A stretch of DNA of 64,000 nt from the NCBI GenBank assembly GCA_014860445.1, contig JACZJT010000032.1, forward strand, positions 138,268-202,267. The letters run 5' to 3'. Source of the DNA: Burkholderiales bacterium. Lineage in GTDB: Bacteria > Pseudomonadota > Gammaproteobacteria > Burkholderiales > SG8-39. A program made the position numbers and the translations under genes. The notes under the pieces were generated by a model. That model worked only from the letters and a program-made list of their open reading frames with translations, had not been told where the DNA came from and did not search any database. Below, piece by piece: positions 9,609 through 43,966 of the stretch; positions within the stretch are counted from its first letter, which is position 1; every line of letters starts with the position of its first letter.

Positions 9609-9646
9609 AGGCCGGGGCGAACCCCGGACCCACGGCGCAGTCGAAC

Positions 9647-13548: not shown

Positions 13549-13567
13549 AATTTTGTTACGACAGGAG

Positions 13568-13586
13568 GCGCGCGCATTGCGCGCGC
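13568..13586. other. GC-only hairpin between alcohol dehydrogenase and the 2Fe-2S subunit gene
   Basis: An 8-base perfect stem GCGCGCGC/GCGCGCGC around ATT. There is no T-run, so it is not a classic terminator. It could stabilise mRNA ends or cause partial termination in the operon. Confidence 0.35.
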
Positions 13587-13636
13587 GGACCTGACCGCGT
13601 AGCGACGAAGTCATCGGCAACCAGGGAGGAATCCGA

Positions 13637-14104
<468 letters not shown>

Positions 14105-14106
14105 GC

Positions 14107-16242: not shown

Positions 16243-16292
16243 ATTGCGATAGCGGGGGCGCATGGTCGCCGCGTGCAGTACCATACGCGGCG

Positions 16293-17228: not shown

Positions 17229-17767
17229 CGGGCGAGCAGGAATAGGGTCGCGAGGACGGCGATCACCCACCATAGGGGCGTCGCAGCAGGCGCGGACGCG
17301 ACTGGCGTTTCCGTGGGGGTGGGGACGGGCCGGCCGATTTTCTGATTGAAGGCGACAAAGAAATCATCCGCCATTTTCTTCGCAACGCCGTCGATCAGCC
17401 GCGAGCCCAGTTGCGCCAGTTTGCCTCCGACCTGCGCCTTCACCGCGTAGCGCAGGCGCGTTCCGGCCTCCGCGGCTGCGAGCGACACCTTGGCAGTCCC
17501 CTTGCCGAAGCCCGCGGCGCCGCCCTGGCCGTCGAAGGAGAGCGCATAGGCATTCGGCGGATCGAGGTCCGCGAGCAGGAGTTTGCCGCGAAATTTTGCC
17601 TTGACCGGGCCGATCGCCGCGACAGTGACGACGCTGTACTCGGTGTCGCTCAGTTTTTCCAGCGATTCGCAGCCCGCAATGCAGGACTTGAGCACTTCAG
17701 GATCATTCAAGCCGCTCCAGACGTCGGCCTGTGCGGCGGGAATGATCTGCTCCCCGGTCATTTCCAT
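17219..17767 (-). CDS. coxG: CoxG-family protein (SRPBCC) with C-terminal membrane anchor
   Basis: A 182-aa protein with a START/SRPBCC fold (residues 1-145; CoxG signature FxGKLLLADLDPP) followed by a Pro/Ala-rich linker and a single C-terminal hydrophobic segment (WWVIAVLATLFLLA) ending in a short basic tail. In CO dehydrogenase clusters, CoxG anchors the enzyme to the membrane and recruits it to the quinone pool. It is last in the moxR-MCD-coxE-coxG unit on the minus strand and convergent with the OCD-family gene. Good identification by fold, tail anchor and context. Confidence 0.85.
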   Translation of the reverse strand: MEMTGEQIIPAAQADVWSGLNDPEVLKSCIAGCESLEKLSDTEYSVVTVAAIGPVKAKFRGKLLLADLDPPNAYALSFDGQGGAAGFGKGTAKVSLAAAEAGTRLRYAVKAQVGGKLAQLGSRLIDGVAKKMADDFFVAFNQKIGRPVPTPTETPVASAPAATPLWWVIAVLATLFLLARYT

Positions 17768-17786
17768 CTATTCATGTCCCCCAGGC

Positions 17787-18980
17787 CTAGGCGGCGATTT
17801 TGCCGGGCCGGCGCTGCCACTTGCCGTGCTCCAGTTCGCGCGCGAGATCGACCAGGCTCTCGATATTGTGCACGGGCAGGAAAGCGTCCACATGCGGCAG
17901 CATCGCGCGCACCCCGGACGGTCGCGGCTGGAATCCGTCGTAGCGCAGCAAGGGGTTGAGCCAGACGAGCTTGCGGCAGGACTTGTGCAGTCTCTCCATC
18001 TCGGCGCCCAGGCCGGCGCCGAGGTCGCGGTCCAGGCCATCCGAAATCAGCAGCACCACCGCATTCTGGCCGAGCAGGCGGCGCGACCACTTGCGGTTGA
18101 ATTCCGTGAGGCAGGTGCCGATGCGCGTGCCACCGGCCCAGTCCTGGATCGCATCGGTTACGCGGTTCATTGCGATATCGACGTCGCGATTGCGCAGATG
18201 GCGGGTGATGTTGGTAAGCCGGGTGCCGAAGACCAGGGTGTGCACGCGGTCACGGTCATTGGTGATGGCGTGCAGAAAATGCAGGAACATGCGCGAGTAG
18301 CGGCTCATCGAGCCCGAAATGTCGCACAACACCACCAGCGGCGGATGCCGGCTGATGCGCGAGCGGCGTTTGAGCGCGATGATCTGCGCGCCGCCCCTGA
18401 GACTCGCGCGCAGCGTTGCGCGAAGGTCGACGCCGGTGCCGTGCGTGTCGGCGTGAAAGCGGCGCGTCCGCACCTCCGGGATGGGCAGGCGCAGGCGCGC
18501 GATCAGCTTTTTCGCCTGTGCCAGTTCGGCGCCGCTCATGCTTTCGAAGTCGGCGTGCTGCAGCAGTTCGCTCTGTGAAGATGCGGGAATCGCGTCGCCG
18601 TCGATTTCCTGCTGCTGCTCCTCGCCCTGCGGCTGCTCCTGCGTCGGCCGCAGCGCGTCGGCCAGCCGCCTGCTTGCCTTGCCGCGTTCATCCTGGCCCG
18701 CGCGTCCGTCGATCGGGGGCAGCAGCAGGCTCATGACGCGCTCGAGCAACTGCGGGTCGCGCCAGAAAATGTGGAAGGCCTGATCGAACAATTCCTGCTG
18801 CTCGCGCTTGGACAGGAACACCGCGGCCAGCGTCCAGTAGAAATCCTCGCGCCGCTCGATGCCCGCGGCCTCCAGCGCCTTCAGCGCATCGATGACGCGG
18901 TCGGAGCCGATGGGCAAGCCCGCCGCGCGCAGCACGCGCGCGAAGTGCATGATGTTTTCAGCCAGTTTGCCGGCGGCCAT
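17787..18980 (-). CDS. coxE: CoxE-like von Willebrand factor A domain protein
   Basis: A 397-aa soluble VWA protein that partners with the CoxD ATPase in maturation of the molybdenum-copper site of CO dehydrogenase and related hydroxylases. The metal-ion-dependent adhesion site (DISGSMS) is near residue 220; a downstream DGLDRD completes it. The N-terminal half is helical and charged, with a Gln/Glu-rich linker (EEQQQEIDGD) at about 120. It starts just upstream of coxG (19-base gap). The family is well defined, so confidence in class is high. Confidence 0.88.
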   Translation of the reverse strand: MAAGKLAENIMHFARVLRAAGLPIGSDRVIDALKALEAAGIERREDFYWTLAAVFLSKREQQELFDQAFHIFWRDPQLLERVMSLLLPPIDGRAGQDERGKASRRLADALRPTQEQPQGEEQQQEIDGDAIPASSQSELLQHADFESMSGAELAQAKKLIARLRLPIPEVRTRRFHADTHGTGVDLRATLRASLRGGAQIIALKRRSRISRHPPLVVLCDISGSMSRYSRMFLHFLHAITNDRDRVHTLVFGTRLTNITRHLRNRDVDIAMNRVTDAIQDWAGGTRIGTCLTEFNRKWSRRLLGQNAVVLLISDGLDRDLGAGLGAEMERLHKSCRKLVWLNPLLRYDGFQPRPSGVRAMLPHVDAFLPVHNIESLVDLARELEHGKWQRRPGKIAA

Positions 18981-19012
18981 GCGAGCTCAGGGCACCAGCG
19001 GTTTCGGCGCGC

Positions 19013-20332
19013 TCATCCGGCCTGCCCGAGCTTCACGCGCGCGAGCAGGCTTCCGCGAGCGAGCAGCGACAGTCCCGGCGAGGCCACGACAAATTGCTCT
19101 TTCGCATAGGCTTCGTGATTGTGCTCGATATCCTTCAGCCGGTAGACGTAATTGACCATCAGGCCGGCAGAGCGCGCCATGCCCGTCGTGGAGGTGTCGG
19201 CGAGCCAGTTGAGGCGTTCCATGCGCGCGCCGTTGCCCAGATGAAAGCGTGCCACCGCGTCGGCGGGTTCATTGCGGTGCTTGACGTGCTGCAGGTAGTA
19301 GGCGCAAAGGCGCATCAAATCGGTGCGCACGCGCGCGCCCGGCGCGAGGTTCTCGAACCAGTTTTCGCCGCTCAAGGTATCGATCAGTTCGGCCAGTTCG
19401 CCGTGCACGGCAGCCGTCTCCGTGAGCCACTTGCGGAATCCGGGAATGGGCGAAAGCGTGGCGAAAGTCTTGAGTCTCGGGAATTCGCGACCGAGGTCCT
19501 CCGCCACCTGCTTGATCAGGAAATTGCCGAACGAGATGCCGCGCAGGCCCGCCTGGCAATTTGTGATGGAATAGAAAATGGCCGTGTCCGCGCCGCTGGG
19601 ATCGACCACCGGGGAGTCGGGGTCGAGCAGCGGCTGCACCCGGTCGCTCATGCCTTTGGTGAGCGCGACTTCGATGAATATGATCGGCTCATCGGGCAGG
19701 GCGGGGTGGAAGAAGGCGAAGCAGCGGCGGTCGGATTCCAGACGGCGGCGCAGGTCCTGCCAGCCCTGGATTTCATGCACTGCCTCGTATTGCATGAGCT
19801 TTTCCAGAACCAGCGCGGGCGTGCGCCAGTCGATGCGCTGCAGTGAGAGGAAGCCGCGGTTGAACCAGGAGCTGAGCAAGTGGAACAGGTCGGCATCGAT
19901 GCCCGCCCATTGCGACTGTTCGCGCAGTTCTCGCGACAGGCGCCGGCGCATTTCGACCAGCGCGGCGGTTCCGCCCGTGGCCAGGTTGAGTCGCCGGAAC
20001 AATTCCTGCCGCTGCGATTCGACCACCTGCTGCAGACGGATCAAGTTGGACTGCGAGGGCTCCAGCCGGTAGGCATTGGCCGCGTCTTCGACCTCGGCAG
20101 GATCCGGAGAAAATTCCCGCGCGAGCACGTCGAAAAACGCCCTCAGTGCCGGACCGGAGAGCAGGCCGTAGGCCGCCAGCGCCTCGCGCGCGATCGCCGC
20201 GCCGGACGCCTCGCCGCGCTCGGAAAGCAGCGCATGGCACAGGGCCACGGTCTTGCGCGTATGCCGGTCGGCTTTGCTGCCGGTTGCCGCGGCAGGGGCG
20301 AACAATCGTTTGATGAACGCGGGAGATTTCAT
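19013..20332 (-). CDS. Malonyl-CoA decarboxylase
   Basis: A 439-aa enzyme converting malonyl-CoA to acetyl-CoA and CO2. Family signatures are TALVEMRRRL, YSITNCQAGLRGISFGNFL and FATLSPIPGFRKWL (the catalytic GNAT-like region with a conserved Ser/His pair). The ATG at 20332 gives a normal length; an open frame extends 40 codons upstream into the MoxR gene end. It lies between the coxD-like ATPase and coxE, an unusual insertion into that conserved pair. Malonyl-CoA decarboxylase could serve malonate use, or remove methylmalonyl/malonyl-CoA by-products; this is an inference. Confidence 0.88.
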   Translation of the reverse strand: MKSPAFIKRLFAPAAATGSKADRHTRKTVALCHALLSERGEASGAAIAREALAAYGLLSGPALRAFFDVLAREFSPDPAEVEDAANAYRLEPSQSNLIRLQQVVESQRQELFRRLNLATGGTAALVEMRRRLSRELREQSQWAGIDADLFHLLSSWFNRGFLSLQRIDWRTPALVLEKLMQYEAVHEIQGWQDLRRRLESDRRCFAFFHPALPDEPIIFIEVALTKGMSDRVQPLLDPDSPVVDPSGADTAIFYSITNCQAGLRGISFGNFLIKQVAEDLGREFPRLKTFATLSPIPGFRKWLTETAAVHGELAELIDTLSGENWFENLAPGARVRTDLMRLCAYYLQHVKHRNEPADAVARFHLGNGARMERLNWLADTSTTGMARSAGLMVNYVYRLKDIEHNHEAYAKEQFVVASPGLSLLARGSLLARVKLGQAG

Positions 20333-20354
20333 GATCTTTGGCGCAGGGACGCCG

Positions 20355-21269
20355 TCAGCCGGGGCTAAGTTCTGCCCGGACCTCGGACAGCAGGCGTTCC
20401 GCTTCGCTGCCGCGCACGCGGCCGATATCGTCCTGGTACTTGAGCAGTGCACCGAGTGTGTCGTTGACCGTGGCCGGATCGAGCGCGAGCTTGTCCAGCG
20501 CCATCAGCGCATTGGTCCAGTCTATGGTTTCGGCGACGCCCGGGAGTTTGAACAAATCCAGCTTGCGCAGCCGCTGCACGAAGGCAACGATCTCGCGCGA
20601 CAGTCGTTCCGCTGCGCCCGGTGCCTTGCGGCGCAGGATGTCGAGCTCGCGCGCCGCATCCGGAAAATCGACCCAGTGATAGAGGCAGCGGCGCTTGACG
20701 GCGTCATGGATTTCGCGTGTGCGGTTGGACGTGATGATCACGATCGGGGGTTTGCCCGCCTTGATCGTTCCGAGTTCGGGAATGCTCACCTGGTAATCGG
20801 ACAGCACCTCCAGCAGGTAGGCTTCGAAGGGTTCGTCGGTGCGGTCCAGTTCGTCGATCAGCAGGACCGGCGCCGCGCCGTTCTCGCCCGCTTCGAGCGC
20901 CTGCAGCAGCGGGCGCTTGATCAGAAATTCGGCGGAAAAAATGTCCCGCCCGAGTTTCTTGCGATCCGCGTTGCCGCCGGCCTCGGCGAGGCGGATTTCT
21001 ATCATCTGCCGCGGATAATTCCATTCATAGACCGCCGAGGAAATATCCAGCCCTTCGTAACACTGCAAGCGCACCAGCTTGCGCCCCAGCGTACTCGCCA
21101 GCACTTTCGCGATTTCGGTCTTGCCGACACCGGCCTCGCCCTCGAGAAACAGCGGCCGCTCCATTTTCAGCGCGAGGAACAGTGCCGTGGCCAGGCTGCG
21201 CTCCGCCACGTAGTCTGCGCGCGCGAGCAGCGCTGCAGTGTCGTCGATCGATTTCGGCAGTTTGACCAT
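20355..21269 (-). CDS. coxD: MoxR-type AAA+ ATPase (CoxD-like)
   Basis: A 304-aa MoxR-family ATPase. Walker A is GEAGVGKTE (about residues 44-52), Walker B is LLIDELDR, and sensor motifs TSNRTREIHDAVKRRC follow. In CO dehydrogenase clusters, CoxD works with CoxE as a chaperone that inserts sulfur and copper into the active site. It is the first gene of a minus-strand unit reading moxR-malonyl-CoA decarboxylase-coxE-coxG; its start is an ATG near 21269. Other MoxR proteins have different partners, but the VWA partner two genes on supports CoxD. Confidence 0.86.
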   Translation of the reverse strand: MVKLPKSIDDTAALLARADYVAERSLATALFLALKMERPLFLEGEAGVGKTEIAKVLASTLGRKLVRLQCYEGLDISSAVYEWNYPRQMIEIRLAEAGGNADRKKLGRDIFSAEFLIKRPLLQALEAGENGAAPVLLIDELDRTDEPFEAYLLEVLSDYQVSIPELGTIKAGKPPIVIITSNRTREIHDAVKRRCLYHWVDFPDAARELDILRRKAPGAAERLSREIVAFVQRLRKLDLFKLPGVAETIDWTNALMALDKLALDPATVNDTLGALLKYQDDIGRVRGSEAERLLSEVRAELSPG

Positions 21270-21448
21270 CGGATTTATGGCGGAGGTGATTGCGGGCTAG
21301 GGCGTACAGGCGGATTCTATACCCATGTGTGTTCATGATTCACGCCAAATTTACCGCCTAGCAGCCGTGTCTGGCGTAACTGCCCGCGTTGAATTCCGGC
21401 GCGAAGCGGGGTAGATTTCATCAAGTTTTGCGCTAGCACAAAACGCTT

Positions 21449-21463
21449 GCGCACGCGGTGCGC
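21449..21463. promoter_or_regulatory. Small perfect inverted repeat between moxR and DUF1847 genes
   Basis: GCGCAC-GCG-GTGCGC, located about 37 bases before the DUF1847 start in a divergent intergenic region. Possibly an operator; may be chance in GC-rich DNA. Confidence 0.25.
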
Positions 21464-21499
21464 TATCCTGCCATTCAGTCTCCACAAAGCGAGTCCAAG

Positions 21500-22234
21500 A
21501 TGAGCGATGACAAGCACGGCTACGATAACCACGGGTACGAGACACCGGGCTGCGCCTACTGCCCGAGCACGGTGCGCGCCTGCCGCCAGGGCGAAGGCGA
21601 TGAGCGCGGCCCGGCCTACTGCCCGTCCAAGGTGGATCCCGAGGGCGTCGCCGCGGCCTGGGAACCGTATCGCGATCCGTTCACCCTGCGCGTCGCGCAC
21701 ACCGCGGCGGTGGTCGAGAGCGAAGGCTACTGCAAATGGACGCGCGTGGAGGAGATTTGCCAGTTCGCAAAAAAAATGGGCTTCACCAAGGTGGGTATCG
21801 CGATGTGCATCAGTTTCGTCGATCTCGCGCGTGTGTTCAGCGCCATTCTGGAAAGTCACGGACTGGAGGTGACCTCGGTGGCCTGCAAGAACGGCGGCGT
21901 GCCGAAAGAGGACATAGGCGTGAAAGAGGGGGAGAAAATCCGCCCCGGGAATTTCGAGCCGATGTGCAACCCGGTATCGCAGGCCGAACTGCTGAACCGC
22001 GCAGGCTGCGAGCTGAACGTCATCATGGGTTTGTGCGTGGGGCATGACAGCCTGTTCATCCGCCAGGCGCAGGGGTTGGTAACGAACCTGGTGGTCAAGG
22101 ACCGCGTGCTGGCGCACAACCCGGTGGGCGCCCTGCAATTGGCCGACACCTATTACAGTCGTGTCTGGGGTCCGCAAAAACCGGAAAAACTGCCGAGCAA
22201 GCCGGCGCGGCGCAAGGCGAAAGCCAAGGCCTAG
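21500..22234 (+). CDS. DUF1847 cysteine-rich metal-binding protein
   Basis: A 244-aa protein recognised as DUF1847, a family of putative metal-binding proteins. The N-terminus has CAYCPSTVRAC and a second AYCPSK, so cysteine pairs are ready to bind a metal; further Cys occur in MCISF, ACKNGG, MCNP and GLCVGH. No signal peptide or membrane segment. The start chosen is the ATG at 21500, because the fourteen upstream codons are poorly conserved in style. The C-terminus is basic (PARRKAKAKA). It is divergent from moxR; the function is unknown. Confidence 0.75.
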   Translation: MSDDKHGYDNHGYETPGCAYCPSTVRACRQGEGDERGPAYCPSKVDPEGVAAAWEPYRDPFTLRVAHTAAVVESEGYCKWTRVEEICQFAKKMGFTKVGIAMCISFVDLARVFSAILESHGLEVTSVACKNGGVPKEDIGVKEGEKIRPGNFEPMCNPVSQAELLNRAGCELNVIMGLCVGHDSLFIRQAQGLVTNLVVKDRVLAHNPVGALQLADTYYSRVWGPQKPEKLPSKPARRKAKAKA

Positions 22235-22246
22235 TCCCCGAATAAT

Positions 22247-22317
22247 GTCATTCCGAGGCCGGAGGCCGAGGAATCTGCTTCTCGAAAAAGTAGATTCCTC
22301 GCTACGCTCGGAATGAC
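22247..22317. repeat. Dispersed palindromic repeat, copy 1
   Basis: A 71-base imperfect palindrome bounded by GTCATTCCGAG and CTCGGAATGAC, with internal GAGGAATCTGCTT and GTAGATTCCTC arms. It sits between the convergent DUF1847 and kinase genes and could fold into a bidirectional hairpin. A second copy is at 51865-51942. Confidence 0.8.
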
Positions 22318-22334
22318 GGCTTCTTAACTGCGCT

Positions 22335-24224
22335 TCAAGATTTCTTCCCTGCGCCGAACCAGCGCCCGCGCAGCTGCTTGATGCCGGAGAGCAGCTTTTG
22401 CCCGACGCTGGAGTTGCTTAGCTGCTCGGACTTTTGCACCTGGTGCTGGCGCAGCAACTGCGGCGATTCACCGAAAGCCAGATAGCGTTCGAGCGCGGCC
22501 TCGACGTGCTGTTTCAGCAGCTTGACGTTCACGGGCTTGTTGAGAAAGCGGAACACCTGTGCCTCGTTGATCAGATGTATCACCAGTTCCGCATCCGATG
22601 CGCTGGTGAGCACGATGCTCAGAATCTGCGGATTTTCCTGCTTCAGCAGCTTCAGCATCGCCGTGGTGTCCTCGTGGCCCGCCTGCACGTCGGCGAGCAC
22701 CACGGCGATTTCCTGCGCCTGCATCGCCTCGAGCGCGTCGTCCAGGCTGTTCGCGTAGAAGACGGGGCAACGGCCGCCGATCAGTTCCTTGGCGACCCGA
22801 AATATTTCCTGGTCGTTGTCGATCACCAGCACGCCCTGGCGCATTTTCTGCGGCAGCGCCACCGCCGCGGTCTTGGTCTCGGCGAGTTCGAGCGCGATGG
22901 TCACCGCTTCGGCCACTGTCTGCTGCAGTTCCTTGTTGTCCCAGGGTTTGCTGACGAAGCGGTAGATCTGCCCGTCGTTGATCGAGCCGACGATCGACGC
23001 AAGATCGGAGTAGCCGGTGAGCAAGATGCGCACGCTCGCCGGCGAAATTTCGCGCGCCTGGCGCAGCAGTTCGACGCCGGGCATGATGGGCATGCGCTGG
23101 TCGCTGATGACCACGTGCATCTGGTATTTCTTCATGAACTCCAGCGCCTTGTTGCCGTCCGTGGTGGCAAACACGTGGTAGCGCATGCGGAACATCGATT
23201 TCAGCGCCGTCAGGATGCGCTCCTCGTCGTCCACGACCAGCATCCGCGCTTTCCTCACGCTGCTGTCCAGGCTGATCGCGCCCTGCTCGCCGGTACCCTG
23301 CGGGGTGCCGCCGCCGGCCGCCGCCTGCGTTCCCGCGCCGGCATCGATCAGGTGCGCCGCGGCCATGAGACCCGCGCCCGGTGCGGCGTCGTCGTGCTTG
23401 AGGCTGGCCTCGATCGCCGAGCGGAAGGCTTCGGCGAATGCGCGCGCATTCTGAAAGCGGTCCTCGGGCTTTTTCGCCAGCGCGCGCTGCAGCACCTGAT
23501 CCATCACGGGCGACAAGGCGGAATTCAGGCTGGAAGGATCGGCGGGACGCTGGTTCAGCACCTGCTGCATCACCGTGGCGGTGGTGCCCAGGAACGGCTT
23601 GACGCCGGTCAACAGGTCGTAGGCGATGATGCCGACCGCGTACAGGTCGGTCGCAACGCAAATCGTCAGGCCGAGAAACTGCTCCGGAGCCATATAGTAC
23701 GGCGTGCCGAGCACGTCCCCATGCTGCGTTAGTTCGGAGGCTTCGGTATGCGCGATCCCGAAGTCGCTGATCTTGATGCCGCCGTCCCGGTTGATCATGA
23801 TGTTCGACGGTTTCACGTCGCGGTGCACGACGCCCGCTGCGTGCGCGTGGCCCAGGGCGTCCAGCAGTGTGCTGATGATTTCACCGACCTCTCGCAGGTC
23901 GTAATTCGCCTGCCCCTGCAGATGCTCGTGCAGGGTCTTGCCGTTGACCAGTTCCATTACGATGTAGGCGAGTTCGTCTTCCTCGCCGTAGTCGTAGATT
24001 TGCACGATGCCCGGATGTGCGAGCCGGCCGACGACCTGCGCCTCGTGGCGAAAGCGCGCGAGCAGGTGCTGCAATTCGCTTTCGTCCAGCGAGGACTTGG
24101 CGATCGTCTTGATCGCAACCGCGCGCGAGATCGCCGGGTCGAAACCCTTGTAGACGGCGCCCATGCCGCCGCGGCCGAGCACTTCGAGGATTTCGTATTT
24201 TCCGATCTTTGCCGGTTGCGTCAC
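22335..24224 (-). CDS. Serine/threonine protein kinase fused to two receiver domains
   Basis: A 629-aa three-module signalling protein. Residues 8-270 are a PknB-type kinase with P-loop GRGGMGAVYKG, catalytic Lys39 (VAIKTI), HRDVKPSN (Asp136) and DFG (Asp154). An Ala/Gly-rich linker follows (about 275-325). Receiver 1 (about 328-445) has DDE, phospho-Asp375 in VVISDQRMP, Thr in LLTGYSD and Lys in VSKPW. Receiver 2 (about 464-580) has DND, Asp512, Thr540 and Lys563. Both receivers keep the residues needed for phosphorylation. It follows a histidine kinase gene by 12 bases, which likely phosphorylates it. No transmembrane segment is visible. The output of the receivers is not a DNA-binding domain, so kinase control is the probable output; inference. 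Confidence 0.88.
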   Translation of the reverse strand: MTQPAKIGKYEILEVLGRGGMGAVYKGFDPAISRAVAIKTIAKSSLDESELQHLLARFRHEAQVVGRLAHPGIVQIYDYGEEDELAYIVMELVNGKTLHEHLQGQANYDLREVGEIISTLLDALGHAHAAGVVHRDVKPSNIMINRDGGIKISDFGIAHTEASELTQHGDVLGTPYYMAPEQFLGLTICVATDLYAVGIIAYDLLTGVKPFLGTTATVMQQVLNQRPADPSSLNSALSPVMDQVLQRALAKKPEDRFQNARAFAEAFRSAIEASLKHDDAAPGAGLMAAAHLIDAGAGTQAAAGGGTPQGTGEQGAISLDSSVRKARMLVVDDEERILTALKSMFRMRYHVFATTDGNKALEFMKKYQMHVVISDQRMPIMPGVELLRQAREISPASVRILLTGYSDLASIVGSINDGQIYRFVSKPWDNKELQQTVAEAVTIALELAETKTAAVALPQKMRQGVLVIDNDQEIFRVAKELIGGRCPVFYANSLDDALEAMQAQEIAVVLADVQAGHEDTTAMLKLLKQENPQILSIVLTSASDAELVIHLINEAQVFRFLNKPVNVKLLKQHVEAALERYLAFGESPQLLRQHQVQKSEQLSNSSVGQKLLSGIKQLRGRWFGAGKKS

Positions 24225-34705: not shown

Positions 34706-35713
34706 TCAACTTTGAGAGACGCCGCATCCGGCTTCGATTCCCGTCTTGGGCGGCTCCACGCTCTGCGGGATTTGCACGCCGCGGCGCACGGCCGTCATTT
34801 CCGCGAGGATCGCCACTGCGATCTCGGGCGGGGTGCGGCTGCCGATCTTGAGTCCGACCGGCCCGTGCAGGCGCGCGATCTCGCCTGCGGACAGATCAAA
34901 ATTCGCCAGTCGCTTCCTGCGCTTGTCGTTGTTGGCTTTCGAACCGAGCGCGCCGACGTAGAACGCCGGAGACTTGAGCGCTTCCATCAAGGCTGCATCG
35001 TCGAGCTTGGGATCGTGCGTGAGCGCGACGACCGCGCTGTGTGCGTCCAGATTCATCGCCTGCACCACGTCGTCGGGATAACCGCGGTCGATCGCGACGT
35101 CCGCCACGTCCCAGGCCGCGGCATATTCCTCGCGCGGGTCGCACACCGTGACGTGGTAGTCGAGGGCCTGGGCCATCTGTCCCAGATAGCGCGACAACTG
35201 CGCTGCGCCGATAATCAGCAGGCGCCAGCGCGGGCCGTGCACGGTCTTGAGCAGCTTGCCGTCAAACTCGAGCGCGTCCGACCAGCGGCCGGGCTCGAGG
35301 CGGGATTTGCCCGACTCGAGATCGAGAAACCGCGCCACCAACTCGTGGCGCTCGATGATGCCCAACAGCTCGTCCAGTCCGGCGCTGTCCTTGACGGGCT
35401 CGAGCACCAACTGCAAGGTTCCGCCGCAGGGCAGGCGGAAGCGATCGGCCTGCTCCTTGGAGACGCCGTAGGTCGCAACTTCCGGCTTGTCGCCGGCGAG
35501 CCTGTGCTCGCGCACGCGCTCGATCAGGTCGTCTTCCACGCAACCGCCCGACACCGAGCCCGACACCTGGCCGTCGTCACGAATCGCGAGCATTGCCCCC
35601 AGCGGCCGCGGCGCCGAGCCCCAGGTCTTGACCACCGTGGCCAGCACCACCGCGTGCCCCGCCTTGTGCCAGCTGCTTGCGTTGCGAATAACTTCCAGAT
35701 CGACACTGTCCAT
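34706..35713 (-). CDS. xdhC: XdhC/CoxI-family molybdenum hydroxylase maturation factor
   Basis: A 335-aa protein that binds molybdenum cofactor and delivers sulfurated cofactor to xanthine dehydrogenase-family enzymes. Features: N-terminal VVLATVVKTWGSAPRPLGAM with SGSVSGGCVEDDL, a linker, and the C-terminal Rossmann-like domain (LLIIGAAQLSRYLGQMA and YVGALGSKANNDKRRKRL). It is the first gene in a two-gene unit with a MobA-like transferase, and is divergent from coxS/coxM. Confidence 0.9.
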   Translation of the reverse strand: MDSVDLEVIRNASSWHKAGHAVVLATVVKTWGSAPRPLGAMLAIRDDGQVSGSVSGGCVEDDLIERVREHRLAGDKPEVATYGVSKEQADRFRLPCGGTLQLVLEPVKDSAGLDELLGIIERHELVARFLDLESGKSRLEPGRWSDALEFDGKLLKTVHGPRWRLLIIGAAQLSRYLGQMAQALDYHVTVCDPREEYAAAWDVADVAIDRGYPDDVVQAMNLDAHSAVVALTHDPKLDDAALMEALKSPAFYVGALGSKANNDKRRKRLANFDLSAGEIARLHGPVGLKIGSRTPPEIAVAILAEMTAVRRGVQIPQSVEPPKTGIEAGCGVSQS

Positions 35714-36002
35714 TGCACACCTTTGTCCGTCCGTGGGTGAACCCCGGTCGCCAGCTCACGCGTCATTCGCGCGTTCGTCTTCAGCTCGCCAACCAGCGCC
35801 GCGGGCCGATTTCCCGGGGGCGCGGCGGTCAAGACTATTCCTCGTGGCGTGGTGGGTCAAGCAGCCGGCTGCCGCCCTTGCAGTTGATTCCAGGCATGGC
35901 ATGGTCTAGGATTTCGACCCTGCACAGGCCGCGCGTGCCTGCTCACATTCGCAGTACGGTCACCCGGCAAAACGGTTTTATTGCCGCGCAAAGGAGAGTT
36001 GC
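35714..36002. other. Divergent region between xdhC and coxS
   Basis: About 290 bases. No reading frame with coding character is seen. A stem CGGCAA (35965-35970)/TTGCCG (35981-35986) lies just upstream of the AAGGAG ribosome site of coxS (35991-35996) and could modulate its translation. Confidence 0.45.
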
Positions 36003-36464
36003 ATGAAAGTTTCGATGACCGTGAACGGCAAAGCGGTCAGCGCCGAGGTGGAAACGCGCACGCTGCTGGTCACCTTTATCCGCGAAAACCTGCGTCTTAC
36101 CGGCACCCACGTGGGCTGCGACACCGGCCAGTGCGGCGCCTGCACCGTGCACATGAACGGAAGGGCGGTGAAAAGCTGCAATCTCCTGGCGCTGCAGGCA
36201 GAAGGCGCCGACATTGTCACCATCGAAGGTCTGGCCGGGGCGGACGGTACGTTGCATCCCATGCAGGAGGCGTTTCGCGAACATCACGGCCTGCAATGCG
36301 GTTTCTGCACGCCCGGCATGGTGATGAGCGCAATCGACCTGGTGAACAATCATTCCGATCCCTCGGAGGAAACCATACGCGCAGAACTGGATGGCAATCT
36401 GTGCCGTTGCACGGGCTACCACAACATCGTCAAGGCGGTGATGGCCGCCGCGGCGAACAGCTAG
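36003..36464 (+). CDS. coxS: 2Fe-2S subunit of a CO dehydrogenase/xanthine dehydrogenase-family enzyme (CoxS)
   Basis: A 153-aa electron-transfer subunit with two 2Fe-2S sites: [15 protein letters not shown] for the first, [10 protein letters not shown] and CRCTGY for the second. AAGGAG site upstream. It is 53 bases before coxM. It is different from the 2Fe-2S gene at 13.6 kb, so the organism has at least two such enzymes. The expected molybdopterin large subunit (coxL) is missing next to it. Confidence 0.9.
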
Positions 36465-37823: not shown

Positions 37824-38735
37824 TTAAACATGCGCCAGTTCGCGTAGCTTGTCGAGACAATTGAAATGCCAGCCTTGAGCATCAATAATCAGCCACCCGG
37901 CGCGCTTCCAGTGACCAAGGGCGCGCGCCACAGTCTCGAAGCGGGCATCGATGATTTCGCTTATTTGTACCAACGTCAGGAACACGGGTAGCCGCGCTTG
38001 CCCGCCCTGGGCATCGACGCCATAACGGTAGACCAGTTGTAGCAGCAGTACCGCAATACGTTGTTCGATTGAGCCCGCACTGATGATCTCGATCTTGTTG
38101 ATAAACGCTTCGCTGAAACGAGTGACTTCACCATTCAGATTCCTGGAAAGCTGCGGGTATTGTTCCGCCAGATCGGATATTTCTCCGGCATCGATGGTGA
38201 TCAGGATCACACCCTCGTTAAGGGCGATGGCGTCGGTCGGATAGCGCATGCCGGCCCAGAAGGCATAAAGGCCCATGGAGTCACCGGGTCCGAACAGACC
38301 ATAGGTCTTGCTGGCTCCATTTCGGTTTCGGCGCGATGCCTTGACGAAACCCGAGCCTATCAGCACTATCGTTCTGGCAGGGTCCCCGCGCTGCCAGAGG
38401 AATTCGCCTTGATGAAAGGTCCGTAGCTGCGCGTTCGCGGCCACCATCTGCAACACGGTTCGGGGTACGCCCTCGAACAGTTCGAAGTGGCGCAGCCTTT
38501 TGGCCAACTCGGTCCTTTCGATTTGCTGTGACTGCGCGGGGATGATCGCAGTCGCACGGCTGCGAAAGAATGCACCGCGCGACAAACCCTGACTCGGAAA
38601 GACCCCGCGGTCACGTAGGCCGATCCACGCGTCTGCGTGCTCCTGTTGGAAATTCATTCCATCGGTAATATTCATATATTGATTCGAAGCCGCTTTAGAA
38701 CTTGATCCGGGATAAGTTTGGTTTTGTTCAGCCAC
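37824..38735 (-). CDS. Crp/Fnr-family transcriptional regulator
   Basis: A 303-aa regulator with a cyclic-nucleotide-binding-like fold (about 75-195; FLWQRGDPARTIVLIGSGFVK) and a C-terminal winged helix (LTLVQISEIIDARFETVARALGHWKRAGWL). No N-terminal FNR iron-sulfur cysteine cluster is seen, so it is not a classic oxygen-sensing FNR. The start is uncertain: a GTG at 38735 gives 303 aa, while internal ATGs at 38675 and 38657 give shorter proteins closer to the usual ~230 aa. It is separated from the decaheme gene by a terminator. Confidence 0.85.
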   Translation of the reverse strand: MAEQNQTYPGSSSKAASNQYMNITDGMNFQQEHADAWIGLRDRGVFPSQGLSRGAFFRSRATAIIPAQSQQIERTELAKRLRHFELFEGVPRTVLQMVAANAQLRTFHQGEFLWQRGDPARTIVLIGSGFVKASRRNRNGASKTYGLFGPGDSMGLYAFWAGMRYPTDAIALNEGVILITIDAGEISDLAEQYPQLSRNLNGEVTRFSEAFINKIEIISAGSIEQRIAVLLLQLVYRYGVDAQGGQARLPVFLTLVQISEIIDARFETVARALGHWKRAGWLIIDAQGWHFNCLDKLRELAHV

Positions 38736-38825
38736 ATAGGGCGTTGAAGTCGATGCTGCGTTCGGGATCTCCGAACAGAACGAAATGTCGTGCTATGGCT
38801 GGCGAATGGTTTCAGAGTGACAAAA

Positions 38826-38862
38826 AACAACCCGGAACCGTTTCCGCTCCCGGGTCATTTTT
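38826..38862 (-). terminator. Terminator after the decaheme cytochrome gene
   Basis: A hairpin ACCCGG (38830-38835)/CCGGGT (38850-38855) with a T-rich run on both strands (TTGTTTTTTG on the minus strand). It is about 80 bases downstream of the decaheme stop codon and lies upstream of the Crp-family gene, so it isolates the two. Confidence 0.6.
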
Positions 38863-38943
38863 TTATCGCTGGTGCGCAGGCACGGCGTACCGTGCCGCGA
38901 CGATCGGGGGCAGGCATTGCACCCGTCGCGCACCCTTCTCGCC

Positions 38944-41547
38944 TTACTTCTTGTGGACCGCCCTCACGCCCAGACCGAACGCGCTGGTATCGCTGTGGCA
39001 GAAGGTGCACTGCTCGCCCGATGCGGTGACATTCGAAGCGATGTGACCCAAGGCCGCGGTGCTGTCGTGGCAGGTGCCGCAGGCGCGCTGGGTAGGTGTC
39101 GTGTACCAGGCAGTCCGGTTCTCCAGCAAAGTCGTGGTACCGGGCTTGGTGGCGGTTTGGCTATGGCAGACCTCGCAGTCCGCAATGTTCCCCGGGAAGG
39201 CGCTGTAGCTATAGTTGTGCGTGCCGTTGATCGCATAGGAACCGCCCGCCACGACGCTGGGCAGATCCTTGCCCCGGTGGAGCTTGTGCACGATCCTCTG
39301 GAAATCGACCGGATCCGCAGTGAACGGGTCCAGCGTGAGCTGATTATGGCAGGTCACGCAGTACTCCGTGGCATAGCCAGAATGCAGCTTCACCCCCGCA
39401 TGGCAGGTGGCGCAGGTGTTCATGGTCACGATATTGCGCGTCGTCTTGACCGCGCTGCCGTCGGGTACGAAATCGAAATAGGCGTTCGTCAGGTTGTCGA
39501 CATTGGGGGTGCCAACTTTCTGGAACGTCATCGCGACCCTATGGGTCAGGGTAGGCTCGTATGCCACCGTGTGCGGACCTGTATTGGCGCCACCCGTTGT
39601 CGATGCTTCGGTCCAGGTCTTGGCGGCCGCATTCCAGGTCCATGTCCCGATCGTCGTATCAGCGGCAGGGCCGACCGACGACGCAACGTGGGCGTGCGAG
39701 ATGGTGCTGATGTCACCGGGAGTGCTTCCGTTTTTCAACTCGAACTTGTAGCTGAAGGTGCCGTCGGCGTTGGCGGTCAACGTTCCGGCATTTTCATTGG
39801 ACGACTGCAGTACGGGTGCCTTGGCCGCGTCCTTGGTGCGGAAGCGGGCGGTGTAGCTGACCCAGTAGGTGGACGATCCGAGTGCTGCGGGTACAAGCTT
39901 CACCAACCCGAACGAAGGTTTGGTGAATTTTGTGGAGTCGGTAACTGCCACGCCTGCGTCGGTTACGCTAAAGGTGACCGTCACGCCACCGGCGGCATCC
40001 ACGGCCACTTTGCTGATGCTCGCGCTCAGGGTTCGTTTGGCTGCGTCAGCTGTCGTGGGCATGGTGTCGCTGTGATAGACGGGAATGTTCGTTTCGTTAT
40101 GACACAGCACGCATAGTGTGTCATCCTGCTTGGAGCCACCGATGTGGCCAGTGGTCGCGCCACCCAAGGTCGTCCCTTTCCCGGTCGAAAAGTCGATACC
40201 GTCGTGGCAGGCACCGCAAGCATCTCGGCTAGGCACGGTTTTCCAGTTGTCGCCCTGCGCCGTATTGTTGGTGGCGGTCGCGGAACCGTCGTGGCACTTC
40301 ACGCAGTTTTGCTGCGCCTGCGGATAAGTGAAGCCTATCTTCGTGGCTGCCGCATCTGCCAGCACACCTTTGGCCACAGCGCGAACGATCTGATAGTCTT
40401 TAGTCAGATCCTTGCCCGCGTGAAACTTGTGGATCATGTTCTTCAGGTCGATGGTGTTATTGGTGTTGTAGTCCTTGCTGCCAGGGTTGTGGCAGATCAC
40501 GCAATAGTTCGGATCGACGCGCGTGCCGTGTGCGGTCAGCGTGGAATGACATTCGTTGCAGGAAGCCTTGTCCACTACTTTCTTGACATCGGTGATGGTC
40601 TTGCCATCGGCGGCTTTGAATGGAACCGCAACGCCGTCGGCGCCGACGGTGAAATCGAGCAGAGGATTGACGACCACTTTCGCGTTCGACGCCGGATCGG
40701 TGTAGCACAACTGCACGCCTACGCGATGTACGGTCTTGCCATCCTTGACCGCGACATTGCCGTTATTGGCAACCTTACCGGACACACCGTTCTTGCCGTC
40801 GACTGCATCGGCTAACAGCAGCGGCGTAACCACGTCGGTGGCGAACCTATAAGTGTAATAGCCGCCGGCGGTATTCTCTTCCAGTATGCCCACTAAACGG
40901 GTGCTGGGATCCGTTACGGCAGTGTCGGGATTGGTGACGGTTGCAGTGGGTTTGGGATCCGTCGTGCCCTCCGCCACGGAATAGCGATAGGTCGGAGGAT
41001 AGAGCTTAGCCGTATCGCTACTCGCATAGCGTTTCGTCAGATCGTCGGCTGCATATCTCTGACGGGAGATCAGGCTCTGCCAGGTGCTCGGGCTGTTATC
41101 CGTCGGTTGTGTCAACTTGGCCATGGCGAAGGTCACGTTGCCGCTGGTGGACGTCGCGCTGGTGCTGCAGGCCGGGTCGGCCGACCCAGCCGCTTTTACC
41201 AGCGTCAGGCCAGTAACGAATTTGCCGGCGGCGTCGATGACCGTGAAATTGACTACAGGGGGACTTTGGATAATCACCGGCGTCGCGCCAGCTGCCACGA
41301 TCAGGCCAAACGCCTGGGCCGGGTTACCAGCAGTATTGGTGGTGGTTGGACTCGCTGCCGCCGCCGTGACTACGGCGGTACCGACCGGTGCGCCCGCAAC
41401 GGTCCCGGTCGAGCCGGCTGGCGCCGCTGCAGCCGGGGCAGCAGTATCACTACTACCGCCGCATCCGGCCAAGGCTATTGCAAACACGCTCACCGCCACA
41501 AATCTGGCCCACTGGGGCAAAAATCGGCTCTTGCAAAATATATTCAC
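38944..41547 (-). CDS. OmcA/MtrC-family decaheme c-type cytochrome (outer-membrane lipoprotein)
   Basis: An 867-aa multiheme lipoprotein that in known homologues moves electrons across the cell surface to extracellular acceptors. Signal peptide FVAVSVFAIALAGC contains a lipobox. Exactly ten CxxCH heme motifs are seen: CNECH, CVICH, CVKCH, CGACH and CVLCH (about residues 329-480), then CATCH, CVTCH, CEVCH, CGTCH and CTFCH (about 712-846). The 5+5 spacing with beta-rich domains between matches MtrC/OmcA. The start is a GTG at 41547 placed after GGAGG; an upstream GTG gives five extra residues. No mtrA or mtrB neighbours are in the window. It is divergent from a NarXL-like two-component pair. 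Confidence 0.9.
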   Translation of the reverse strand: MNIFCKSRFLPQWARFVAVSVFAIALAGCGGSSDTAAPAAAAPAGSTGTVAGAPVGTAVVTAAAASPTTTNTAGNPAQAFGLIVAAGATPVIIQSPPVVNFTVIDAAGKFVTGLTLVKAAGSADPACSTSATSTSGNVTFAMAKLTQPTDNSPSTWQSLISRQRYAADDLTKRYASSDTAKLYPPTYRYSVAEGTTDPKPTATVTNPDTAVTDPSTRLVGILEENTAGGYYTYRFATDVVTPLLLADAVDGKNGVSGKVANNGNVAVKDGKTVHRVGVQLCYTDPASNAKVVVNPLLDFTVGADGVAVPFKAADGKTITDVKKVVDKASCNECHSTLTAHGTRVDPNYCVICHNPGSKDYNTNNTIDLKNMIHKFHAGKDLTKDYQIVRAVAKGVLADAAATKIGFTYPQAQQNCVKCHDGSATATNNTAQGDNWKTVPSRDACGACHDGIDFSTGKGTTLGGATTGHIGGSKQDDTLCVLCHNETNIPVYHSDTMPTTADAAKRTLSASISKVAVDAAGGVTVTFSVTDAGVAVTDSTKFTKPSFGLVKLVPAALGSSTYWVSYTARFRTKDAAKAPVLQSSNENAGTLTANADGTFSYKFELKNGSTPGDISTISHAHVASSVGPAADTTIGTWTWNAAAKTWTEASTTGGANTGPHTVAYEPTLTHRVAMTFQKVGTPNVDNLTNAYFDFVPDGSAVKTTRNIVTMNTCATCHAGVKLHSGYATEYCVTCHNQLTLDPFTADPVDFQRIVHKLHRGKDLPSVVAGGSYAINGTHNYSYSAFPGNIADCEVCHSQTATKPGTTTLLENRTAWYTTPTQRACGTCHDSTAALGHIASNVTASGEQCTFCHSDTSAFGLGVRAVHKK

Positions 41548-41735
41548 GGCATCCTCCGTCACAAATTAAGCTTCTTAGGTTATTGACCAGGAGAGCATAT
41601 GCCGTGGTGAACTCGCCCACTATAGCCATTCTATTCAAGTTGACTGGGGCCTAAAGCCTTGTTGTGATCAGACTTTGGTCGCATCATAAGTGGCACCCTT
41701 GCGTGCTATGCTTGCTTGGACCTTAACTATCCGCC
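41548..41735. other. Divergent promoter region between decaheme cytochrome and histidine kinase
   Basis: About 190 bases without a gene. It should hold promoters for both the cytochrome and the kinase, and binding sites for the response regulator. A GTGG/CCAC inverted pair occurs near 41603-41621. I find no clean Crp, Fnr or sigma-54 site. Confidence 0.4.
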
Positions 41736-43178
41736 ATGGCACAACCAACGTTCCCGCGACCCCTGTTAATGGCGATGAAGTTAACCTTCGGTCGCCTGAA
41801 CCTTTCGCGCCAGTTCGTGGTGGCGAGTTTCGCGATCCTCCTCGCCGGAATGCTCATCATCGGAACCTGGCTTGGCGATCAGATCGAGAGCAGCAGCGTC
41901 AACCGCGCCGCATCGATAGCGACCGTTTACGTGGAGAGTATCCTGGCCACACAGCTGCGCGCGCACGCCAGCGGCGGCGGCATCGGCAGCGAGGAGCGTG
42001 CGGCGCTGGATCGCGTGTTCGTCGAAGGACCTCTGCGCCGCAAAGTAGTCCGCTTCAAGCTCTGGGACCCCGACGGCACCATTCTCTACAGCAGTGACGC
42101 TGCGCAGTTGGGGCACCGCTACGTGGTAGAGGGGATGCTCGCCGCGGCCTTTGCGGGGACGGTTCAGTCCAGGATCAGCAGTCTGGACGATTCCGACAAC
42201 GCCTCAGAACGTGCGCATTGGTCGGAACTACTTGAAGTCTACGTGCCGTTTCGAACCGACGCGAATGGCAAGGTCAGCACCGTCGCCGAGTTCTATCACT
42301 CGACCGCGAACCTGGGCCGCGACATCCGCGCCGCCAAAAGGCGCAGTTGGGTGTTGGTCACAGTCGCTACTGCCGCGATGTACCTAATGCTGCTCGGCAT
42401 TGTGCGCCGCGCAAGCACCACCATCGTGGGCCAGCAGCGCGACCTGAGCCGCCAACTGCGGCAACTGCAGGCCACGGTCGGCGAAAACAATCGCATGCGC
42501 GGGCAGCTGCGCGAGGCGGTTGCGCGCACAACCGCGCTCAACGAGCAGTTTCTGCAACGGGTAGCCGCCTACCTGCACGACGGACCGGCGCAGGAGGTTT
42601 CCTTGGCCCTGATGCGCCTAGAGACACTCGGCGAAGCACGATACGGCAAGGATGCGCTACAGCGCAATACGTCTCATGACTTCGAAATCATCTACCGAGC
42701 GCTGAATGCCTCGCTCGTGGATCTGCGCAATATGGCCTCCGAATTGGGAATGCCGAAAATCGCCGATCTGTCGCTCGCCGACACCGTGAGGCGTGCCGTG
42801 AGCGATTTCCAGTGCAAGTCCGGAACGACAGTCCAGCTCGAGGTCGACGACGCACTGGAGGAAGCCCCGCTTGCGGTCAGGATCACCGTCTACCGTTTGC
42901 TCCAGCAGTCGCTCGCCAATGGTTGGCTGCATGCGCGCGGGGCGGCGCAGCAGGTGCGCGCGCGTCGCGCCGGTGGGCAGGCGCTGATCGAGGTTAAGGA
43001 CCAGGGTCCGGGCTTCGTTCCACAGGCGGCCTTCGAGTCCGGGCGATTAGGACTCGCGTTCATGCGCGAGCGCGTTCGAATGCTCGGCGGAGTCTTCGAG
43101 ATCGTGTCCGAACCTGGGCGCGGTACGCGCATCCTGGCTAGACTTCCGCTTTCAATCGAGGATGCGGAACGTGCCTGA
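41736..43178 (+). CDS. NarX-like sensor histidine kinase
   Basis: A 480-aa kinase of the HisKA_3 family. Membrane segments at about 27-45 and 204-222 enclose a periplasmic sensor of about 155 residues. After a coiled-coil linker (residues 228-262), the phospho-acceptor is in YLHDGPAQEVSLAL (His281), with HATPase motifs DQGPGF and GLAFMRERV after. It overlaps the LuxR-type response regulator gene by 17 bases, so the two form a pair. Divergent from the decaheme cytochrome gene. The signal is unknown; respiration or redox is a reasonable guess from context. Confidence 0.88.
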   Translation: MAQPTFPRPLLMAMKLTFGRLNLSRQFVVASFAILLAGMLIIGTWLGDQIESSSVNRAASIATVYVESILATQLRAHASGGGIGSEERAALDRVFVEGPLRRKVVRFKLWDPDGTILYSSDAAQLGHRYVVEGMLAAAFAGTVQSRISSLDDSDNASERAHWSELLEVYVPFRTDANGKVSTVAEFYHSTANLGRDIRAAKRRSWVLVTVATAAMYLMLLGIVRRASTTIVGQQRDLSRQLRQLQATVGENNRMRGQLREAVARTTALNEQFLQRVAAYLHDGPAQEVSLALMRLETLGEARYGKDALQRNTSHDFEIIYRALNASLVDLRNMASELGMPKIADLSLADTVRRAVSDFQCKSGTTVQLEVDDALEEAPLAVRITVYRLLQQSLANGWLHARGAAQQVRARRAGGQALIEVKDQGPGFVPQAAFESGRLGLAFMRERVRMLGGVFEIVSEPGRGTRILARLPLSIEDAERA

Positions 43179-43863
43179 TCCGATTCGCATCCTTCTCGCC
43201 GATGACCACCCGATGTTCCGCGAGGGCGTCGCGCACTCGCTCGGCGGCGAGCCCGATCTCGAGATCATCGCCCAGACCGAAAGCGGCGAAGAGGCGGTGG
43301 AGCTGGCGCAGCGCTTGACTCCCGATATGGCGCTGCTGGATATCACCATGCCCGGGATCGGGGGCATTGCGGCCGCCGCAAGTATTGCCGCTAGCGTGCC
43401 TGACGTGCGCATCCTGATGCTCACCGTATCCGAGGACAAGGACAACCTGTTGGCCGCCCTTAAGGCCGGGGCGCACGGCTACGTGCTCAAAGGGACCTCG
43501 GCTAGCGAGTTGCGTGCCATCGTACGCAGCGTGGCGGGCGGCGATGCCTTCGTCACAGCTGCGCTTGCTACGCGGCTGCTGGTCGAATTCTCGCGCCCGA
43601 AGAAACACAATCCACTCTCAGAGCTAACGGCGCGTGAGCATGATGTTATCGAACTCCTTGGCATGGGTTGCAGCAATCGCGAGATTGCTGCACGCCTCCA
43701 CCTCGCCGAAAAGACGGTCAAGCACTATGTGACTTGCATCCTTCAGAAGCTCCACGCGCGTAGTCGCACTGAGGCGGCCCTGATCTCGGTCGGGCACGGC
43801 TTGCCCAAGCGTGCAGCGCCCGGGGCGATACCAGCCAAACAGCCGCCGAACAACAAGCGGTAG
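43162..43863 (+). CDS. NarL/LuxR-type response regulator
   Basis: A 233-aa response regulator. Receiver: DD at 14-15, phospho-Asp60 (MALLDITMPG), Thr in MLTVSE and Lys in YVLKGTS. C-terminal LuxR helix-turn-helix: LTAREHDVIELLGMGCSNREIAARLHLAEKTVKHYV. A short basic C-terminal tail follows. It overlaps the kinase gene by 17 bases. It is a good candidate to control the decaheme gene that reads away from the shared intergenic region. Confidence 0.9.
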   Translation: MRNVPDPIRILLADDHPMFREGVAHSLGGEPDLEIIAQTESGEEAVELAQRLTPDMALLDITMPGIGGIAAAASIAASVPDVRILMLTVSEDKDNLLAALKAGAHGYVLKGTSASELRAIVRSVAGGDAFVTAALATRLLVEFSRPKKHNPLSELTAREHDVIELLGMGCSNREIAARLHLAEKTVKHYVTCILQKLHARSRTEAALISVGHGLPKRAAPGAIPAKQPPNNKR

Positions 43864-43966
43864 TTTTCTTGGAAAGCTGCTTGCGCGCGTTGGACGCGAA
43901 TACGCTAATACGGGTTGATGTCATCAAGCGCGGCCTGAACAGGTGGCCATCCGTAGCGGGTCTCGG

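Follow-up and report, generated by a model that had tools for sequence, protein, structure and literature searches.

The window analysed here is a 64,000-nucleotide stretch of a Burkholderiales genome (G000; 73 contigs, 4.61 Mb, 99.5% complete), corresponding to contig C56:138268-202267, and its subject is a decahaem cytochrome gene of the OmcA/MtrC family set divergently beside a histidine kinase and a response regulator. The region between the divergent genes carries a palindrome that is a candidate site for the regulator, and relatives of the kinase-regulator pair stand beside other electron-conduit genes, an arrangement that points to a hitherto undescribed family of switches controlling electron transfer across the cell surface. 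The features of the locus are as follows, with cytochrome residues numbered after the 872-aa longest open reading frame (ORF).

38944-41547, minus strand: OmcA/MtrC-family decahaem surface lipoprotein, 867 aa, GTG start (ORF, hidden Markov models (HMMs), haem motifs and modelled fold)
41461-41472, minus strand: lipobox LAGC ending at Cys34, found by inspection after a hydrophobic stretch
40099-40560, minus strand: first pentahaem group, five CxxCH, residues 335-488 (CxxCH positions; best stretch of PF22113, 327-497)
38995-39414, minus strand: second pentahaem group, five CxxCH, residues 717-856 (CxxCH positions)
41667-41684, no strand assigned: operator-like palindrome ATCAGACTTTGGTCGCAT, candidate regulator site in the divergent intergenic region (comparison of loci)
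41736-43178, plus strand: membrane histidine kinase, 480 aa, with N-terminal transmembrane helix, HisKA_3-type H281 and HATPase_c (ORF, HMMs and model)
within 41736-43178, plus strand: extracytoplasmic region of the kinase, residues ~46-190, mixed alpha/beta (structure model)
43162-43863, plus strand: response regulator, 233 aa, receiver and LuxR-type helix-turn-helix (HTH), NarL-like (ORF and HMMs)

The longest cytochrome ORF spans 38944-41562 on the minus strand and encodes 872 aa; the GTG at 41547, with GGAGG just upstream, is the better start and gives 867 aa. CxxCH motifs begin at residues 335, 354, 420, 449 and 484 and again at 717, 735, 796, 828 and 852, ten in all, whereas 1000 shuffled versions of the protein averaged 0.014 motifs and never had more than 1, and the lipobox Cys is invariant in an alignment of 45 sequences. 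The protein scored 426.3 bits against TIGR03507, the OmcA/MtrC family model (cut-off 209.3), gave two matches to Pfam MtrC-MtrF_II-IV, and retrieved MtrF (7.5e-25) and MtrC when phmmer was run against the PDB. An AlphaFold model built on the 45-row alignment (predicted local distance difference test (pLDDT) 72.1; predicted template modelling score (pTM) 0.70) was matched by Foldseek to MtrC, OmcA, MtrF or UndA at every one of PDB ranks 1-15, with E from 4e-22 to 1e-15. The original prediction of an 867-residue lipoprotein with ten CxxCH in two pentahaem clusters, for which a family HMM search and a structural alignment had been proposed, is borne out by the start, the five-plus-five motifs and the LAGC lipobox as well as by both comparisons; the window gene is confirmed as an OmcA/MtrC-family decahaem lipoprotein, and its electron-transfer activity is a prediction. 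A disulfide in domain III is a feature of MtrC and OmcA, and no Cys lies between haem 5 and haem 6 in the window cytochrome or in the four decahaem proteins of contig C55 (C55_Omc1-4). Neither the missing disulfide nor the unlinked mtrAB is taken as defining for membership, linkage to mtrA/mtrB being a frequent and non-defining feature of the family because of SO_1659 (mtrF-2) of Shewanella, an OmcA/MtrC-family surface decahaem that the accessible part of PMC5357785 places outside the mtr operon. Since SO_1659 is known, an orphan surface decahaem is not new in itself, and what the window adds is one more member of a known family, in a type of orphan position that is also known.

On the other side of the divergent region, the kinase scored 40.7 bits for HATPase_c and only 16.9 bits for HisKA_3 (cut-off 24), a domain seen at E<=1 in 18 of 18 family kinases. 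The regulator, whose gene overlaps that of the kinase by 17 bp, scored 88.2 bits for the receiver and 58.7 bits for GerE and has a candidate phospho-Asp in LLDITMPG; the gap from kinase to cytochrome is 174 bp by the longest cytochrome ORF. Equivalog cut-offs were not reached for NarX (47.2 of 578) or NarL (167.9 of 250), and that of NarQ was also far off. The kinase model, of moderate quality (mean pLDDT 68.5), places strands at 104-110, 115-119, 144-148, 165-173 and 180-189 in the extracytoplasmic region, and the Foldseek matches listed for this moderate model were mostly histidine kinases and phytochromes. No convincing match to a Pfam sensor domain was found in the extracytoplasmic region of 18 kinases, and the kinase of G485 gave a weak single-Cache match (sCache_3_2, 20.3 bits, below the 28.4 cut-off). 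The earlier description of a NarX-like kinase and a NarL-like regulator back to back with the cytochrome thus stands as regards the divergent pair, which is real, whereas "NarX-like" applies only to the kinase core; the two-component system is NarX/NarL-like only in kinase core and regulator. A Cys pair of CxxC type follows the H-box helix in the kinases L111, L115, L116, L119 and L149-L151, as in many paralogues, and might act as a redox switch in the cytoplasm; it is missing from the window kinase and from the three orthologues closest to it.

Kinase matches occurred in 29 of 98 genomes of the bacterial family of the window at E<=1e-20, many of them restricted to the core, and, with the own genome included each time, in 12 of 399 genomes of the order at E<=1e-50 and in 2 of 369 of the class. 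The kinase family was represented by 30 loci with at least 35% identity, namely the window, 17 others from its bacterial family (one of them the genome's own paralogue), 11 from the order, and G485. It was compared with a control set of kinase-core-only homologues from the same bacterial family as the window genome, comprising 20 loci of 22 at 28-35% identity, 19 of them with a kinase call (L179 had none); L189 and L193 had too short a flank at 1.2 kb, and L193 lacked upstream sequence for the palindrome test. A divergent CxxCH gene lay within 1.2 kb in 24 of the 30 family loci and in none of the 17 controls with the flank visible (Fisher p=3.7e-8); the corresponding figures were 14/30 against 0/17 within 0.6 kb (p=0.0006) and 24/29 against 0/13 within 2 kb. 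When close kin were collapsed to one each (the hexahaem-NrfD loci; three single-haem-barrel loci of one family; the window with G013), the 1.2-kb count was 12 of 17 against 0 of 17 (p=2.3e-5). A count within 4.5 kb (divergent CxxCH gene, 25/30 against 0/19; any CxxCH gene, 27/30 against 2/19) was not kept as the main figure: at none of the control loci was the divergent flank visible out to 4.5 kb, which made the comparison unfair. Outside the 30-locus count stand the class-level G698 and three partial kinase matches, G018:C280 (a tetrahaem gene after the regulator), G018:C295 and G015:C103 (a divergent hexahaem gene). The partners of the kinase family were of several kinds.

Window and G013: orphan OmcA/MtrC
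G046:C4: dihaem
G058 and G238: MtrA-like decahaem, below the TIGR03508 cut-off
G444: dihaem-NapC-MtrA-MtrB
G247: monohaem-MtrA-MtrB-MtrC, with NapC further on (PF03264, 247.6 bits)
G116: dihaem-NapC
G110, G333, G485 and G178: single-haem proteins of ~500 aa with N-terminal FARQTG, plus dihaems
G001: PccH (PF22297, 210 bits)
G046:C33: DsrO/DsrP-like with trihaem
Own paralogue at C56:59373 and others: hexahaem-FeS-NrfD

The MtrC of G247 is in two pieces, with 251.2 and 153.7 bits to TIGR03507. The FARQTG proteins have a CxxCH followed by barrel-like sequence in the two that were read through, with no Pfam match among four scanned and no NCBIfam match among two, and these single-haem proteins of ~500 aa (G110, G333, G485, G178) look Cyc2-like. 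Two proteins of this length, at L172:7559-9079 and L203:8144-9676, have a single CxxCH near the N-terminus and barrel-like sequence; neither Pfam nor NCBIfam gave a match, and by eye they too look Cyc2-like. In the kinase tree the window falls in a 12-row clade (94/88) in which MtrAB, MtrCAB, Cyc2-like and orphan-MtrC partners occur together, so the partner changes while its type persists. CoxS-like [2Fe-2S] and XdhC/CoxI genes lie at 34706-36464 of the window (Pfam) and at 1-3903 of L172 (by eye), in each case within ~7 kb of the kinase family and in two different bacterial families, possibly by coincidence.

Most loci of the kinase family share the palindrome ATCAGACYWWGGTCTGAT upstream of the kinase, and that of G013 is identical to the window's and lies at the same distance. 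The window palindrome scored 16/18, and none of 500 shuffles reached its score when the matrix was drawn from other clades. With a matrix built without the clade of each locus and 500 dinucleotide shuffles, 23 of 31 loci gave p<=0.05, two of which (G010 and G014) owe their score to a site that does not resemble the palindrome seen elsewhere in these regions; at a score of at least 11/14, the palindrome was present in 18 of 30 family loci and in none of 19 controls, one control being without upstream sequence. The window thus shows the traits proposed for the family, which are kinase homology (by construction), a divergent cytochrome gene and the palindrome upstream of the kinase. A promoter scan of 38736-43966 returned one promoter-like site against 1.5 in shuffles, which is nothing usable. 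In the own genome, the sites matching the palindrome are C7:111847, C40:93407 and the window itself, and no multihaem gene was found around the C7 and C40 sites in the stretches read; near the C40 site there is only a 160-aa ORF with a single CxxCH, 3.6 kb away. The best own-genome match (one mismatch), C7:111847-111862, lies just upstream of a 221-aa minus-strand ORF, and the 12 kb read there contain no CxxCH gene.

The conduit that such a surface cytochrome would use is encoded elsewhere. No further CxxCH-rich ORF and no MtrB was found in the 64-kb window, in line with the original prediction, which had seen no MtrA or MtrB alongside and had proposed either conduit partners at a distance or the use of a different conduit. 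A search of the genome supports the first alternative, as it located both genes on contig C55 and thus not adjacent to the cytochrome. This contig carries four further OmcA/MtrC decahaem genes (7465-19415), a ten-haem MtrA/DmsE protein (19412-20428; TIGR03508, 303 bits) that is the one MtrA-type protein of the genome to exceed the cut-off, and an MtrB/PioB barrel (20480-22567; TIGR03509, 514 bits) that is its only MtrB/PioB match. The label "orphan" therefore holds by position, but the genome has one MtrA-MtrB conduit and four more surface decahaems; the window cytochrome is the fifth, orphan by position only, with its conduit on another contig. In G013 and G049, the genomes with close orthologues of the window cytochrome, MtrB is likewise on a different contig. 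Just before the core MtrC, at C55:16425-16922 and in counterparts in L017, L118 and L121, lies a small protein of ~120-165 aa with a signal-like N-terminus, which may be the HhH protein described in the accessible part of Baker et al. No match to the NapC/NirT family (CymA-type; PF03264) was found in G000, and the inner-membrane link must therefore be something else. Because of this missing NapC/NirT match, the NrfD module at C56:~54800-67900 is a candidate that could serve as the quinone link of the electron chain. That region (L111) contains a paralogous kinase-regulator pair, 40% identical, flanking a hexahaem-FeS-NrfD operon, tetrahaem cytochromes and a nine-haem protein.

The origin of the gene was addressed with a tree of 98 rows from 116 candidates, made by a quick method, with proteins dropped if shorter than 690 aa or if the haem count was not 9 or 10. 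The window cytochrome groups with those of G013 (support 100) and G049 (100), and the next sister (92) is L017, a gene inside the intact mtr cluster of RIFCSPLOWO2_12_FULL_64_23; all four fall within a clade of 24 rows (99) made up of accessory MtrC paralogues, most of them betaproteobacterial. C55_Omc1-3 and the members from L017, L018 and L019 belong to mtr clusters. At L016, four decahaem genes follow one another and the 14.5 kb read contain no mtrAB; the L020 locus is truncated on one side, and no mtrAB was seen on its other side. C55_Omc4, the core MtrC encoded next to MtrA, falls apart from the accessory clade. The simplest interpretation is that an accessory mtrC was relocated, and from its place in the tree the window gene looks relocated. 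The divergent pair of cytochrome and kinase is kept in G013, as are all ten CxxCH and the lipobox; the ratio of nonsynonymous to synonymous substitution rates (dN/dS) against G013 comes to 0.15 (cytochrome), 0.33 (kinase) and 0.30 (regulator), and by this measure the window cytochrome is under purifying selection.

A different control element is associated with the main mtr clusters. An FNR-type box, TTGAYNNNNRTCAA, was found ~400 bp or less upstream of the first decahaem gene read in seven of the eight mtr clusters scored (own C55, G019, G014, G010, G017, G009 and G048; not L018), and in none of 27 kinase upstream regions; an example is the palindrome TTTGACCTAAGTCAAA at C55:7251-7266. The pattern was derived from four of the seven clusters, so that three are fresh matches and L018 is a fresh miss, and 105 kb of sequence from the own genome and its kin gave 8 occurrences, with two of the seven boxes among the sequence covered. 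Given its presence at mtr clusters and absence at kinase regions, the orphan seems to have left FNR-type control. A CRP/FNR gene at 37824-38735 of the window was rejected as part of the module: it is absent in G013, where other genes follow the cytochrome, and its translation lacks the N-terminal Cys cluster that is a feature of FNR.

Taken together, these data allow a model in which an accessory surface cytochrome has been moved from FNR-type control to a dedicated sensor, which is the best reading of the locus and a probable one. The model proposes that an accessory MtrC/OmcA-type gene moved out of a betaproteobacterial ancestor's mtr cluster to a position next to, and divergent from, the genes of a kinase and a LuxR-type regulator. 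The kinase would read a periplasmic or envelope signal through its extracytoplasmic alpha/beta domain, which is not that of NarX, and the phosphorylated regulator would bind the palindrome at 41667-41684 and set, in one sense or the other, transcription of both divergent units, the cytochrome gene and the kinase-regulator operon. Regulation of the cytochrome by the adjacent two-component system is thus predicted, with comparative support. The cytochrome would be exported as an outer-membrane lipoprotein and would exchange electrons with the MtrA-MtrB(-MtrC) conduit encoded elsewhere, possibly by docking to it, so joining the surface pool; OmcA exchanges electrons with MtrC. Electron flow may be outward, to Fe(III), Mn(IV) or an electrode, or inward. 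At 2-1932 the window contains type II secretion ATPase and GspF-type genes (PF00437, PF00482), type II secretion being the surface route of MtrC/OmcA in Shewanella.

Several observations weigh against this model. The palindrome was first spotted by eye in the same loci in which it was then scored, so that the test was not blind, and 8 of 31 loci failed it. A 16-mer scan of the own genome with up to two mismatches gave three sites, no more than a control pattern (3 forward and 2 reverse matches, compared with 3 and 6 for the reversed control), and at this control level no regulon could be drawn. Among the 30 family loci, ten or eleven inherit one hexahaem-NrfD cluster and six are without a divergent CxxCH gene within 1.2 kb: none was seen at L174, L175 and L176 (only 2.3 kb being visible at L174), L120 and L173 have one only at 3.5 and 2.9 kb, and L118 is cut by the contig start. 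Downstream of L118 lie genes for nine-haem and four-haem proteins, and the same contig encodes mtrAB. The palindrome is present in G405 (L176) and G698 without a cytochrome neighbour, and may therefore mark self-regulation of the kinase operon and not control of the cytochrome. Such a view fits the unlikely alternative that the cytochrome is only a neighbour of the two-component system, whose target is itself or something else, as would the three order-level kinase relatives and G698, none with a cytochrome neighbour seen, and the G049 orthologue, for which 4.4 kb of upstream sequence shows no two-component system (on the downstream side the contig ends), so that the pairing of cytochrome and kinase is not obligatory. 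However, G013 has the same arrangement and the identical palindrome, and the contrast of 24/30 family loci with 0/17 controls extends over many cytochrome types. Decay of a paralogue without function, the least probable of the explanations, would accord with the orphan position, with the nine CxxCH and one longer-spaced motif of the G049 orthologue, and with the deletion of SO_1659, which according to the accessible part of PMC5357785 had no clear phenotype; the last two points also weigh against the model. The ten CxxCH and lipobox kept in window and G013, together with the low dN/dS, argue against it.

Two further explanations, each improbable, concern the partners of the cytochrome. The two-component system could have a broader reach that takes in the distant mtr cluster, in which case all five surface cytochromes would form one regulon. 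This would agree with a partial match to the palindrome, ACCAAGGTCGCTT, at C55:7393, ~60 bp upstream of the first C55 decahaem gene and one of three exact genome matches to a relaxed palindrome pattern, with a paralogous system on the same contig as mtrAB in G049 and G048, and with an orthologous system divergent from mtrAB in G247 and G444. However, the palindrome matrix was not significant on the C55 upstream region (p=0.14), seven other mtr upstream regions scored gave no match beyond shuffles (the scoring left out five of seven fetched regions: G004, G008, G006 twice, and G011), and six of those seven carry the FNR-type box. The palindrome was accordingly rejected as operator of the main mtr cluster and kept only as a rival proposal; with an FNR-type box and without a convincing palindrome at that cluster, the window cytochrome could be switched separately. 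The orphan might alternatively use a non-Mtr conduit or act without one, for example in cell-cell contact, a proposal of similarly small probability. No mtrAB was seen beside the cytochrome in the window or G013, nor in G049, where the contig is only 7.2 kb; however, MtrB is encoded elsewhere in all three genomes (other conduit types were not searched for), and L017, the sister row, is part of an mtr cluster, as are other members of the clade.

How bacteria sense an electron acceptor or donor outside the cell and choose a surface conduit is largely open. For Sideroxydans sp. CL21, the accessible part of PMC12442390 reports that iron-oxidation genes are regulated in stages and names no regulator. 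It is quite possible, if somewhat short of an even chance, that an undescribed two-component family of Burkholderiales and neighbours, lying divergently beside MtrAB, MtrCAB-NapC, Cyc2-like barrels, orphan MtrC and hexahaem-NrfD quinone modules, decides through one conserved palindrome which electron conduit the cell builds. Two paralogous pairs of the window's genome flank the ends of the chain, the candidate inner-membrane module at C56:~55-68 kb and the surface cytochrome, and the family may therefore sense electron donors or acceptors outside the cell. Such a family, with its defined palindrome and its place beside several unrelated kinds of conduit, is a testable candidate for conduit choice, and it would explain an accessory surface cytochrome expressed apart from the main mtr cluster with its FNR-type box. 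No description of such a family with recurrent conduit partners and a palindrome was found in the open-licence literature, as far as its accessible text extends (subscription literature was not searched); the pairing is not described in the accessible parts of PMC10734462, PMC12442390, PMC3770913 and PMC2755013, and PMC5566968 does not mention two-component systems, histidine kinases, response regulators, sensors or regulation.

Compared with known systems, the window protein has in common with MtrC, OmcA, MtrF and UndA of Shewanella (3pmq, 4lmh, 4lm8, 6qyc, 3ucp) the two pentahaem groups, the lipoprotein character and the fold, whereas identity is only 14-18% in fold alignments and the domain III disulfide is lacking. 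The kinase and regulator have the HisKA_3-type core and the receiver-LuxR HTH architecture of NarX-NarL and NarQ-NarP. However, the sensor region of NarX is a nitrate-binding helical bundle and that of the window kinase is modelled with five strands, and the palindrome is unlike the NarL site, which is a heptamer. Extra mtrC genes adjoin 44% of mtrCAB clusters, counting only proximal ones, according to the accessible part of Baker et al. (2022, PMC8805035); the window protein is of the same kind as the accessory mtrC of betaproteobacterial mtrCAB clusters and falls among them in the tree, although those counted there adjoin mtrCAB and the window gene lies on another contig beside a sensor system. 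With SO_1659/mtrF-2 it shares the orphan position, but the window gene has a divergent two-component system with a conserved palindrome, and none is mentioned for SO_1659 in the accessible text of PMC5357785. Like the mto/mtr operons with CymA-like genes of iron oxidisers (PMC3770913), G444 and G247 have MtrA, MtrB and a NapC-type protein, and G247 also MtrC; however, their conduit genes are divergent from orthologues of the window kinase, whereas the accessible part of PMC3770913 describes no linked two-component system.

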